Positions 21,120-41,442 of a DNA stretch of 64,000 bases are shown in pieces. The notes below the pieces were generated by a model that saw nothing but the letters and a program-made list of their open reading frames with translations, was not told where the DNA came from and did not search any database. The DNA comes from Methanocorpusculum sp. Lineage in GTDB: Archaea; Halobacteriota; Methanomicrobia; Methanomicrobiales; Methanocorpusculaceae. The position numbers and the translations under genes are program-made. The DNA lies in NCBI GenBank assembly GCA_017399555.1, contig JAFQBW010000004.1, positions 62,001 to 126,000 of the forward strand, given 5' to 3'. Numbering within the stretch: position 1 is the first letter of the stretch; every line of letters starts with the position of its first letter.

Positions 21120-21368
21120 AGAAGCACTCATCCGAGGGTTTGAATCCCGGATTTCGGTGCTGACTGGAGTAAGTCCGACGTGTTTCAACGACACTGCCTA
21201 TCATGGCTTAGGGATTACGGCGAGTCAGCATAATCATTACTCTAACGTGTAATGCATGCTGCTCTTTTCGTGACTTACGCAAATCTCTGAACAACAGCGA
21301 TACACAGGGATTTGTTCGACAGGATGTACGGTCCTTTCGCAGTCAACAATTCGCAACGGTGAAAAACT
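21120..21368 (+). ncRNA. Structured leader RNA upstream of rps15, unidentified
   Basis: No frame codes here. Helices seen directly: AGCAC (21123-21127) with GTGCT (21157-21161), enclosing a GGG-TTTGAAT-CCC hairpin; GCTGACT (21159-21165) with AGTCAGC (21223-21229); GAGTAA (21167-21172) with TTACTC (21237-21242); and CAAATCTCTG (21280-21289) with CAGGGATTTG (21305-21314, one G-U). The first two helices share three bases and the second and third cross, so alternative or pseudoknotted folds are possible. It may be an autoregulatory ribosomal leader or an independent small RNA processed from the message. No known family was recognised. Confidence 0.55.
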
Positions 21369-21827
21369 ATGGCACGAATGCACGCTAGAAGAAGAGGTAT
21401 TGCCTCCTCTGTTCGCCCATTCAGAACTGAAGCTCCTGAGTGGTCCAACACTGACGCAAAAGAAATCGAGGCAAAAGTTGTCGAGCTCCGTAAAACCGGT
21501 ATGACCTGTGCCCAGATTGGTCTCGTACTCCGTGACAAACACGGTGTCCCAAGCGTTAAACTTGCAACCGGCAAGAGAGTCAACGCAATCATCCGCGAGA
21601 ACAACATGGACAACGAACTCCCGGAGGACTTAAGAAACCTCATGCACAAAGCACTTGGCATGAGAAAACACTTAGCAAACAACAAGCACGACCTGCACAA
21701 CAAGCGCCAGCTCCAGCTGACCGAAGCAAAGGTTAGAAGACTTGTAAAATACTACGTGGGCACTGGCCGCCTCCCGGCAGGCTGGGCATACTCCCCGGAG
21801 ACCGCAGAGATTATCCTCTCCAGATAA
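21369..21827 (+). CDS. rps15: 30S ribosomal protein S15 (uS15)
   Basis: Binds the central domain of 16S rRNA early in small-subunit assembly. The 152-aa archaeal/eukaryal form has the N-terminal extension MARMHARRRG(I)ASS, the S15 core (VELRKTGMTCAQIGLVLRDKHGVP), and the C-terminal KRQLQLTEAKVRRLVKYY helix. It is the first gene of a compact operon with the DHH nuclease, pcc1 and rps3ae, an order frequent in archaea. The unusually long, structured leader suggests control at the RNA level. Confidence 0.95.
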   Translation: MARMHARRRGIASSVRPFRTEAPEWSNTDAKEIEAKVVELRKTGMTCAQIGLVLRDKHGVPSVKLATGKRVNAIIRENNMDNELPEDLRNLMHKALGMRKHLANNKHDLHNKRQLQLTEAKVRRLVKYYVGTGRLPAGWAYSPETAEIILSR

Positions 21828-38692: not shown

Positions 38693-38696
38693 CTGT

Positions 38697-39101
38697 ATGA
38701 AAGATACCCTTCTCACCGACAGACAGAAGGAAGTTATCCGTCTCCGAAAGCAGGGAATGACTCAGCAGCAGATTGCTGACCGTCTTGGTACGTCGAAGGC
38801 AAACATCTGTACTATAGAGAAGTCTGCAAACGAAAACATCCGCCGGGCAAAAGAGACGTTGGAGTTCCTCTATACTCTTGACGCCTCTGAGCTTTGCACG
38901 ATTCCGGCAGGCACGGATTTGATGGATGCGCCAAAGCTTATCTATGCGGCAGCGGCTCCGACGAATGTGAAGATTATCTATGATACGCTGGCGTTAATCA
39001 ACCGTTTATCCTCGTACATCCCGGAGAAGTTCCGCGGACGGCAGGTCAAAGAGGATATCTGCGTATATCTGAATAAAGAGGGCGACCTCTACTTCAGCTG
39101 A
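38697..39101 (+). CDS. tfx: Tfx-family DNA-binding protein
   Basis: A 134-aa regulator. The N-terminal helix-turn-helix LTDRQKEVIRLRKQGMTQQQIADRLGTSKANICTIEKSA is the Tfx signature; the C-terminal half holds the conserved small domain with YIPEKFRGRQVKEDICVYLN. Tfx of Methanothermobacter binds near the promoter of the molybdenum formylmethanofuran dehydrogenase operon, so a role in methanogenesis gene control is likely here, perhaps including the divergent mtd. The ATG at 38697 is favoured over 38634 because a TATA box lies 28 nt upstream. A T7 run directly after the stop codon (39103-39109) probably terminates it. Confidence 0.88.
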   Translation: MKDTLLTDRQKEVIRLRKQGMTQQQIADRLGTSKANICTIEKSANENIRRAKETLEFLYTLDASELCTIPAGTDLMDAPKLIYAAAAPTNVKIIYDTLALINRLSSYIPEKFRGRQVKEDICVYLNKEGDLYFS

Positions 39102-39126
39102 CTTTTTTTCCAAAACCATGCAAGGT

Positions 39127-39140
39127 TTTATTATATATTA
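39127..39140 (+). promoter_or_regulatory. TATA region of the L3 leader/ribosomal operon
   Basis: TTTATTATATATTA predicts a transcription start near 39155-39165, more than 500 nt before the L3 start codon. Confidence 0.5.
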
Positions 39141-39154
39141 GAACCAATGATATA

Positions 39155-39690
39155 GAGCCTTTAATTAGGCTGATATCAGCGATTCTGCTGAAATGAGGAT
39201 ATCCAGTTGGTACAAAACAGCGCATTTCGCGTCTGGTTTTGTAATTGTGTAACCCGGAGCGGTTTTCCGCGGCCGGTGTTAAGACCTTCATAGGTCTGAT
39301 GATACGCGCAGGGCGAACGTCTCTGATGTGCCCATCCTGAAATGCAGGAGCGCGTCGATGTCAGGTTCTCTTCCGTGAGACTTGGAAAATTACTGTCTGC
39401 CGAACTTACGAGCAGACGCACCGCGGTTTATACCGGGTGATCGGGCTTTGAACAGATAAGACGTTATCGTGTTCAGTTTGGATATCCAGTTAGAGGATTT
39501 ACAAAGTACAACCCGTCTTTTCAGTCCACCTGCGAAGCAGGAGACCAAGACAACAGTGTCCCGCGGGTCGATTCCGAAAAGGAAGCCGGCGGTGAAAAAG
39601 ATAGGCTGTCACATCTGATGACAACCAGCAGAACTAGTTTGAAGCGCTTGAAAAAGCAGATTCAGACATTATCACAGGATTGATGAAAAA
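39155..39690 (+). ncRNA. Long structured RNA upstream of the L3 operon, unidentified
   Basis: Nearly 540 nt with no convincing frame but many perfect helices: AGACCT/AGGTCT (39282-39297); a three-way junction closed by ACGCGC/GCGCGT (39304-39355) with arms GGGC/GCCC and TCCTG/CAGGA; GTCTGC/GCAGAC (39395-39417); GAACAGATAA with TTATC(G)TGTTC (39450-39474); and ACCCG/CGGGT (39511-39568) enclosing GTCTT-GTC-CCTGC with GCAGG-GAC-AAGAC. ACAAAAC/GTTTTGT (39212-39242) and GCGG/CCGC add more. GGATATCCAGTT occurs at 39197-39208 and 39480-39491. It may be one or more noncoding RNAs sharing the promoter, or a regulatory leader. No match to RNase P, SRP RNA or tRNA was found. Confidence 0.65.
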
Positions 39691-40692
39691 ATGAGAACAG
39701 TGAGACCCAGAGCAGGTTCACTCGCATACTATCCGCGCAAGCGCGCCAAGGACATTATTCCAAAGTACCAGTCCTGGCCGCAGTACGACGGACAGCCAAT
39801 GCTCCAGGGCTTTGCAGGCTACAAGGCAGGCATGACCCACGTGATCATGATCGATGATCACAAAAAGAGTCCGACAGAGGGCAAGGAAATTATGGTCCCA
39901 GTGACTGTAATTGAAATCCCGCCAATGACCGTTGCCGCAATCCGCGTCTACGTCAAAGACACCTACGGAAAGCACCCGCTTACCGAGGTCTGGGCAGAAA
40001 ACACCGAAGCACTCTCCGGCAGAATCACCAAAGCAAAGACCAACAACGCAGCAAAAGCAACCGAGAAGATCAACGCTGCAATTGAAGACGTTGTTGAAGT
40101 TATGGTCTTAATGTACACCAAGCCAACCGCACTTACCGGTGTTCCAAAGAAAGTCCCGGACTTAATGGAAATCCGTGTTGCAGGCGGCAGTGCAGCAGAC
40201 CGCTTTGCATACGCTCTTTCTATTCTCGGAACCGAGATTGAAATGTCCTCTCTCTTCGCAGACGGTCAGTTTGCAGACATTACCGGAATCACCAAAGGTA
40301 AGGGATTCAACGGTGCAGTCAAGAGATTCGGTATCACTCTCCGTAAGAGAAAGCACTCCAGAGCAAAGAAGACAAGACACATCGGTACCCTCGGTCCATG
40401 GCATCCTCACCACGTCAGATGGCAGGTCCCAATGGCAGGTCAGATGGGATTCCAGCAGAGAACCGAATTTAACAAGCGCATCATCAAGATCGGCGACAAC
40501 CCAGACGAGATTAACCCGGCTGGCGGTTTCCTCCACTACGGTCTTGTCCGTGGAAACTACGTCCTGATTAAGGGAAGCATTCCAGGACCGGCAAAACGCT
40601 TAGTCCGTATCCGCTCTGCAACCCGCATGGGTGAACAGAAGGTTCAGACTCCGGTTGTTGAGTTTGTCAGTCTCCAGAGCAAGCAGGGGTAA
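39691..40692 (+). CDS. rpl3: 50S ribosomal protein L3 (uL3)
   Basis: Early-assembling large-subunit protein near the peptidyl-transferase centre. The 333-aa archaeal/eukaryal form starts [20 protein letters not shown] and has the diagnostic [25 protein letters not shown] and [19 protein letters not shown] segments, whose histidines surround the site of the eukaryotic L3 His methylation. It is the first coding gene of the operon, behind the long structured leader; only a weak SD-like GATTGATGA precedes its ATG. L4 begins on the next base after the stop codon. Confidence 0.97.
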
Positions 40693-41442
40693 ATGAGCAT
40701 GAAAGCAAACGTAAAAGCAATTAACGGCTCAGTTCTCCGCGAAATCGAGCTCCCGGCAGTCTTCGATGAAGCATACCGCCCGGACCTTATCAAGAGAGCT
40801 GTCCTCGCATACCAGAGCGAAAACTATCAGGCATACGGTGCAGACAAGTACGCAGGTCTCAGAACCTCCGCAGAAGGCTGGGGATCCAAGCGCGGCGAAT
40901 CCAAGATTCCGCGTATCAAGAACGGCAGCCGCGGTGCAAAAGTTCCGCAGACCAAGGGTGGTCACCCGGCACACGCACCAAAAGTCGAGAAAGTCTTCGT
41001 TGAGAAGATCAACAAGAAGGAGAAGGCAAAGGCAATCCGCTCCGCAATTGCAGCAACCGCAAACACCGAACTCGTCGCAGCACGCGGACACAAGTTCGAG
41101 GGTGACGCAGCAATCGTCGTTGAGGATGCATTTGAAGCAATCGCAAAGACTGCAGAAGTCATCAAGGCACTCGTTGCACTTGGTGTCGGCGCAGACTTAG
41201 AGCGTGCAAAACTCTCCAAGAAGATCCGTGCAGGACGCGGAAAGACCCGTGGACGCAAGTACAAGCAGGCAGTCTCTGTCTTAATCGTCACCGCAGGCGA
41301 ATTCGTTGCAGCAAACAACATCGCAGGTGTTGACTGTGTACCGGTCACCGCACTGAACGCAAACCTCCTTGCACCGGGATGTGACGCAGGCAGACTTACC
41401 GTCTGGACTGAAGCAGCTGTAAAGAAACTCGGGGAGGCATAA
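40693..41442 (+). CDS. rpl4: 50S ribosomal protein L4 (uL4)
   Basis: Lines the exit tunnel with its extended loop. The 249-aa archaeal protein includes AGLRTSAEGWGSKRG, PRIKNGSRGAKVPQTKGGHPAHAP (the basic tunnel loop region) and KIRAGRGKTRGRKYKQAVSVLIV. The ATG at 40693 abuts the L3 stop; a second in-frame ATG at 40699 fits the GGGG of the L3 end better as an SD, so the true start may be two codons later. L23 follows 2 bp after the stop codon. Confidence 0.97.
   Translation: MSMKANVKAINGSVLREIELPAVFDEAYRPDLIKRAVLAYQSENYQAYGADKYAGLRTSAEGWGSKRGESKIPRIKNGSRGAKVPQTKGGHPAHAPKVEKVFVEKINKKEKAKAIRSAIAATANTELVAARGHKFEGDAAIVVEDAFEAIAKTAEVIKALVALGVGADLERAKLSKKIRAGRGKTRGRKYKQAVSVLIVTAGEFVAANNIAGVDCVPVTALNANLLAPGCDAGRLTVWTEAAVKKLGEA

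Follow-up and report, generated by a model that had tools for sequence, protein, structure and literature searches.

In bacteria, the S10 operon, which includes the genes of the ribosomal proteins L3 and L4, carries a leader that is bound by L4. The closest archaeal candidate is the L4-Archaeoglobi ribosomal leader RF03135 (Eckert and Weinberg, 2020, PMC7247131), a three-way junction made of a closing stem, an inner stem and two hairpins, located on the sense strand 5' of the L3-L4-L23-L2 operon. The text of that article presents it from Archaeoglobi only and as an upstream leader, with L4 binding and operon regulation inferred by its authors as well. Here we describe a relative of this element in a window, meaning the whole stretch of 64,000 nucleotides (nt) analysed, from Methanocorpusculum sp. 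(assembly GCA_017399555.1, contig JAFQBW010000004.1, positions 62,001 to 126,000). Between the stop codon of a tfx family gene (39101) and the ATG of the L3 gene (39691) lie 590 nt free of genes (39102-39690), and these most probably serve as 5' leader to the ribosomal-protein operon L3-L4-L23-L2-S19, whose genes after L3 and L4 we take from their sequences to be L23, L2 and S19. The L3 protein is 100% identical to that in several Methanocorpusculum records. It is highly probable that the element within this leader acts in cis to autoregulate the L3-L4 operon, and that it was ancestrally embedded in an upstream gene and was freed as a leader when that gene decayed. As in the bacterial S10 operon, it belongs to the leader of an operon containing L3 and L4 with predicted regulation by a ribosomal protein, whereas its structure differs, it lies approximately 300-600 nt before L3, and its binding by L4 is putative. 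With RF03135 it shares the three-way junction, the strand and the position before the L3-L4 operon, while it occurs across Halobacteriota, where Archaeoglobaceae and others have it inside a gene of the family PF02598 and Methanomicrobiales have it in a leader free of genes; the copy in the window also has a shortened P4 helix.

The L4-type element and its distribution in Methanomicrobiales

The core of the leader consists of the following parts, supported by RF03135, our covariance model R1, covariation, and nhmmer homology to the PF02598 coding segment of relatives.

39292..39368, + strand: L4-type ribosomal-leader element, a three-way junction
39296-39300/39360-39364, + strand: junction helix P1
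39304-39309/39350-39355, + strand: junction helix P2
39311-39333, + strand: junction helix P3
39335-39339/39345-39349, + strand: junction helix P4

A three-way junction at 39304-39355 had been proposed in the original prediction, and its helices P2, P3 and P4 are indeed backed by compensatory changes. The Rfam search that it had called for gave a match to RF03135 at 39296-39364 just under the gathering score, with 32.8 bits over the full model against a threshold of 34.5 (E-value 2.6e-4 in a permissive 1-kb scan), and this is the single match in the genome (E 1.2e-4). The closing stem, the inner stem and the two hairpins of the family are all present in this interval, and the copy lies on the sense strand 5' of the L3-L4-L23-L2 operon as described for RF03135. 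The host is not a member of Archaeoglobi, and since matches occur across the phylum, the lineage limit in the family description is too narrow. Two other structured RNAs, to which the leader could not be matched when it was first noticed, have their genes elsewhere in the window genome (G000): RNase P RNA (RF00373; G000:C49:7006-7309, 187.8 bits) and signal recognition particle RNA (RF01857; G000:C22:51738-52051, 172.9 bits), and neither family has a match in the leader.

In our survey of 150 Methanomicrobiales genomes, RF03135 matches 93 and passes the curated cut-off in 73, and wherever a hit locus was checked against L3, the element was 5' of this gene on the same strand. The covariance model R1, built from 45 leaders and giving rough E-values, recovers copies that RF03135 misses and detects the element 5' of L3 in practically all leaders of the order; on the window copy it scores 54.8 bits, including the contribution of this copy to the model. 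With filters switched off, the best match lay before L3 in all 14 genomes of the order that had earlier scored low or not at all (E < 0.005 in 12). A first order-wide MAFFT alignment folded with RNAalifold yielded a consensus of -5 kcal/mol because the helices slip in register, and a covariance model was used instead. The Methanomicrobiales alignment A2 contains 13 pairs with double changes and has a covariation score of 0.295, compared with 0.183 for shuffled alignments and at most 0.107 for slid partners. The helix P2 is misregistered both in A2 and in an alignment of coding copies (A3, below), with 56% and 47% of cells paired, respectively. A register-free search gave a mean P2 length of 5.85 versus 5.00 for swapped partners, a modest gain since the arms are mostly CGC-rich.

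The same RNA inside a methyltransferase gene, and the probable loss of that gene

Loci of Archaeoglobaceae, Methanothrix and Mnemosynella that were anchored on L3 have their R1 match inside an open reading frame (ORF) of 254-293 amino acids (aa) directly 5' of L3. This ORF belongs to PF02598, a SPOUT methyltransferase family related in sequence to 1k3r (MT0001) and to human C9orf114/SPOUT1. A phylum-wide R1 search added 20 loci, several of them apparently haloarchaea, and the element is inside PF02598 in these too except for two Methanomicrobiales without the gene. Outside Methanomicrobiales, it resides in PF02598 coding sequence in most Halobacteriota lineages where it is found. Four Methanomicrobiales that possess the gene (L022-L025) carry PF02598 in the interval from tfx to L3, and the element is in frame there (GGA TCT GAC ... 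TGG GTG GAC GTT ... GTC AGG ATC). Our literature searches found no report of the element within the methyltransferase gene, and we came upon no mention in the main text of PMC7247131 of an overlap with coding sequence, which the authors of RF03135 may nevertheless have noted.

The coding copies are constrained at the level of RNA. In A3, which comprises 33 of them, 85.4% of structure cells are paired and 16 pairs show double changes, and the covariation score of 0.352 exceeds those of shuffled alignments (0.159) and of slid partners (at most 0.135). When synonymous codons were shuffled within the gene, the element had a mean z-score of -2.95, versus -0.78 (standard deviation 1.40) for control windows of the same genes; the mean is over 28 valid genes plus one invalid row (L188, wrong frame), without which it is approximately -2.97. 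Archaeoglobaceae show the strongest effect (z about -5 to -6); it is weak in some copies of Methanothrix type, as it is in those intact Methanomicrobiales copies that were tested (z -0.6 to -1.3). Eight GC-rich loci of Halobacteriota, apparently from haloarchaea, use AGG for only 1-2 of the 56-65 arginine codons of the methyltransferase and L3 together, and in all eight one AGG sits at the GUC/AUC-AGG of the element, the 3' strand of P1, these loci being related and not independent.

Most of the order has lost the protein. PF02598 had no match in 146 of the 150 Methanomicrobiales genomes, that of the window included, and none in 106 of the 108 most complete ones. In the genomes without the gene, the gap of ~480-860 nt between tfx and L3 holds no PF02598 frame. 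Such gaps are the rule there, although short leaders had at first been presumed usual for archaeal ribosomal operons. An nhmmer profile of 11 intact genes matches the decayed leaders over ~90-260 nt around the element with E-values down to 6.8e-20, where the best match to five shuffles per leader was 0.13. Broken-frame relics of the protein are visible, among them REGVVIRHNGLTE, GSD..AWVDV and FWFTPEES, and the translated fragments to either side of the element are frame-shifted and contain stops. In pairwise DNA alignments of decayed flanks with intact genes, the upstream flank gave no signal (mean z 0.0) and the downstream flank a mean z of 1.5, the value of locus L058 being inflated by a run of N; the profile search is decisive only for the segment around the element. 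In a tree of L3, the g13 genomes with an intact gene are nested within the family f2, together with genera in which it has decayed (branches 97/89 and 88/80), which requires at least three losses in f2 alone if the gene cannot be regained; its transfer within the order is another possibility. The probable reading is that the PF02598 gene decayed repeatedly in Methanomicrobiales while the element was kept as a pure leader.

One may ask whether the conserved stretch is merely a decaying remnant of the methyltransferase whose structure is left over from coding constraint, as the relics seen in several genera would permit. We consider this very unlikely, given that the base pairs covary in lineages without the gene, that practically all leaders retain the element although nothing else of the gene can be recognised, and that the structure in intact genes exceeds the synonymous-codon controls. 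That the element serves as an autoregulatory site of the SPOUT methyltransferase itself fits its location in that coding sequence in most lineages outside Methanomicrobiales, and yet it is the least probable of the explanations weighed here, since the 146 Methanomicrobiales genomes without the gene still keep the element; this could at most be a further role where the gene persists, and it is excluded for the window genome, from which PF02598 is absent.

We hold with good confidence the broader view that an RNA controlling a ribosomal operon is hidden in an upstream enzyme gene across an archaeal phylum and has repeatedly outlived that gene, the remnant becoming a long noncoding leader in Methanomicrobiales and perhaps, judged by architecture, in Methanosarcinaceae. 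In mammals, the noncoding RNA Xist derives from a protein gene. It is similar in that a former coding region now works as RNA, while in the present case the RNA function appears older than the loss of the gene in which it was embedded, and the product is a cis-acting leader.

In Methanosarcinaceae (L130, L131, L132, L137, L139 and L140) there is no methyltransferase gene beside L3 and the leaders are long and gene-free. At ~230-350 nt before L3 they contain a similar three-way junction, with P1 GGAUUUA/UAAAUCU and P3 GGGCC..GCCC followed by UCUUUU, and its P2 arms vary yet stay complementary (AGUUGU/ACAACU, ACCAUC/GAUGGU). The R1 E-value is only about 0.5, and shared descent with the element is a lead, not a result.

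Proposed regulation and its ligand

From the gene content and from the constant position and strand, we regard the ribosomal operon as the target of the element. On the favoured model, an excess operon product, L4 by precedent, would bind the three-way junction on the messenger RNA and lower expression of the operon; the direction and the step of this regulation are our proposal. The element would be older than the leader, with one stretch of the PF02598 gene directly before L3 serving both protein and RNA in most of the lineages outside Methanomicrobiales where it occurs, and in the ancestry of Methanocorpusculum the methyltransferase gene would have decayed while selection on the RNA retained the element and its surroundings. 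The methyltransferase is not the needed ligand, as genomes without it keep the element.

The element lies ~300-600 nt 5' of the L3 start, too distant for direct masking of that start except through long-range pairing. Two hairpins that are invariant in Methanocorpusculum, at 39282-39297 and 39361-39385, occupy strands of P1, and since both use these strands, they and the closed junction are mutually exclusive. This suggests a possible two-state switch in which binding of the ligand would close P1 against the competing hairpins. The second of them is:

39361..39385, + strand: hairpin UCAGGUUCUC-UUCCGU-GAGACUUGG, which competes with P1 for UCAG

Its invariance in 16 Methanocorpusculum leaders leaves no covariation to test, and many other genera have a UCUYUUNCGNGAGA hairpin 3' of the element.

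A separate trans-acting noncoding RNA that happens to precede the operon would be suggested by the length of ~590 nt, the structure along all of it and a TATA box of its own. It seems improbable because the RNA always lies on the strand of L3 and directly before it, its core falls within coding sequence directly before L3 in relatives, a second copy of the element is absent from the window genome, and no terminator-like U run was noticed before L3. A cis leader whose ligand is L3, L23, L2, another product or something else is a variant compatible with the autoregulatory model, and we regard it as a real possibility, somewhat short of an even chance: according to the text of PMC7247131, the name L4 in RF03135 follows bacterial precedent only, and no similarity of the element to ribosomal RNA (rRNA) was found. 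By analogy, L4 remains our best guess.

Several observations weigh against the autoregulatory model. The window copy is below the RF03135 gathering threshold (32.8 versus 34.5 bits) while the same-genus copies G001, G003, G004 and G007 pass it with 42.6-43.0 bits, and for this reason we term it a sub-threshold homologue; the family itself is rated borderline by its authors in the text of PMC7247131. Methanocorpusculum leaders show only weak direct similarity to the methyltransferase gene (E 0.007-0.58), collinear and at the matching position, and with their own remnant at the detection limit, it is through intermediate genera and synteny that they are traced to this gene. Finally, local alignment with 23S rRNA was not above shuffles and R1 had no match in 23S loci, so L4 binding gains no independent support from R1 or from primary sequence; the element might still mimic a small rRNA motif.

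If the autoregulatory model is right, the L4 leader known from Archaeoglobi would be an RNA living within a protein gene, and one selected for itself, as the many genomes would show in which the RNA has survived without the protein. Upstream ORFs could then conceal leaders, and the RNA modification made by the methyltransferase would be predicted to be lost in nearly all Methanomicrobiales. Three processes would become directly testable in culturable methanogens and haloarchaea: translation through a regulatory element, autoregulation of archaeal ribosomal operons, and the change by which a coding gene becomes a leader.

Other features of the leader and its surroundings

The leader as a whole was originally described as lacking a convincing reading frame and as highly structured, and both descriptions hold: the longest sense ORF inside 39102-39690 has 49 aa, and the minimum free energy is -208.4 kcal/mol (z = -6.9), with none of 100 shuffles as low. 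Compensatory changes across relatives, proposed at that time as a check, are present in A2 for the junction and in an alignment of the whole leaders of 16 Methanocorpusculum (A4) for the leader. The alifold structure of A4 has 118 pairs, 25 of which changed on both sides compared with 16.9 in shuffled alignments and at most 13 with partners slid; because the 16 sequences form about three clades, the independent events are fewer than the cells. Several supported helices lie outside the three-way junction. The original reading of one or several noncoding RNAs cotranscribed with or regulating the operon is borne out as to class, since the leader lies on the sense strand, has a conserved box resembling a promoter and contains as its core a ribosomal-protein leader of a known, predicted type; no evidence was found in it for several separate RNAs. 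The remaining features are as follows.

39127..39138, + strand: TATA-box-like promoter element TTTATTATATAT; TTTATAT-type boxes lie ~25 nt 5' of the conserved leader start in leaders across the order
39156..39171, + strand: 5' hairpin AGCCU/AGGCU at the putative transcript start (A4 helix 1: 91% of cells paired, one double change)
39197..39204, + strand: GGAUAUCC copy 1, which may pair with 39480-39487 as the 5' arm of a long-range helix (near-invariant in the genus, alifold-predicted, no covariation)
39450..39474, + strand: hairpin GAACAGAUAAGACGUUAUCGUGUUC (A4 helix 15: 98% paired, one pair with double changes)
39480..39487, + strand: GGAUAUCC copy 2 (near-invariant in the genus, alifold-predicted, no covariation)
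39561..39592, + strand: conserved 3' hairpin CCGC-GGU/GCC-GCGG (A4 helix 19: two pairs with double changes, in one clade)
39604..39626, + strand: conserved 3' hairpin GGCUGUC/GACAACC (A4 helix 21: 99% paired)
39677..39684, + strand: GGAUUGAU, presumed L3 ribosome-binding site, kept just 5' of the L3 start in nearly all Methanomicrobiales leaders
38694..39101, + strand: tfx family gene, upstream context (TIGR00721 106.9 bits, PF14601 98.8 bits)
39691..40692, + strand: rpl3 (L3), with which the operon presumed to be regulated begins
40693-41442: L4, directly after rpl3

The TATA region noticed at first sight thus corresponds to TTTATTATATAT, conserved ~25 nt 5' of the first conserved block, from which transcription would start near 39155. 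A 12-nt direct repeat, GGATATCCAGTT, had also been pointed out and is present at both positions (39197-39208 and 39480-39491). As a functional repeat it is rejected, for only the palindromic 8 nt GGATATCC are conserved in both copies. Being self-complementary, the two copies of GGATATCC are able to pair around the element, forming a long-range helix that is unproven, as six of its eight pairs are invariant and double changes are absent from all eight in A4. A perfect 12-nt palindrome, GCTGATATCAGC at 39169-39180, is kept in most of the genus and shares GATATC with both GGATATCC copies, which makes three interchangeable pairing partners. The long hairpin closed by ACCCG/CGGGT (39511-39568) did not survive comparison, since the Methanocorpusculum clade L014-L020 has TTCCG versus ATGGT at these arms; the segment also allows another pairing, of 39561-39568 with 39585-39592, in which two pairs are compensatory in A4.

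The gene order tfx-leader-L3 is kept across Methanomicrobiales. The sequence GGATTGAT at 39677-39684, 5' of the L3 start, is conserved nearly throughout the order though it is no standard archaeal Shine-Dalgarno sequence. Elsewhere in the window, an S15-Methanomicrobia leader (RF03137, 59.2 bits) occurs at 21123-21218 before an S15-like ORF (21369-21827), a known element in its expected place; it resembles the L4-type element as an archaeal ribosomal-protein leader of the same organism and differs in belonging to an unrelated family, in being short, and in lying directly before its S15-like gene.
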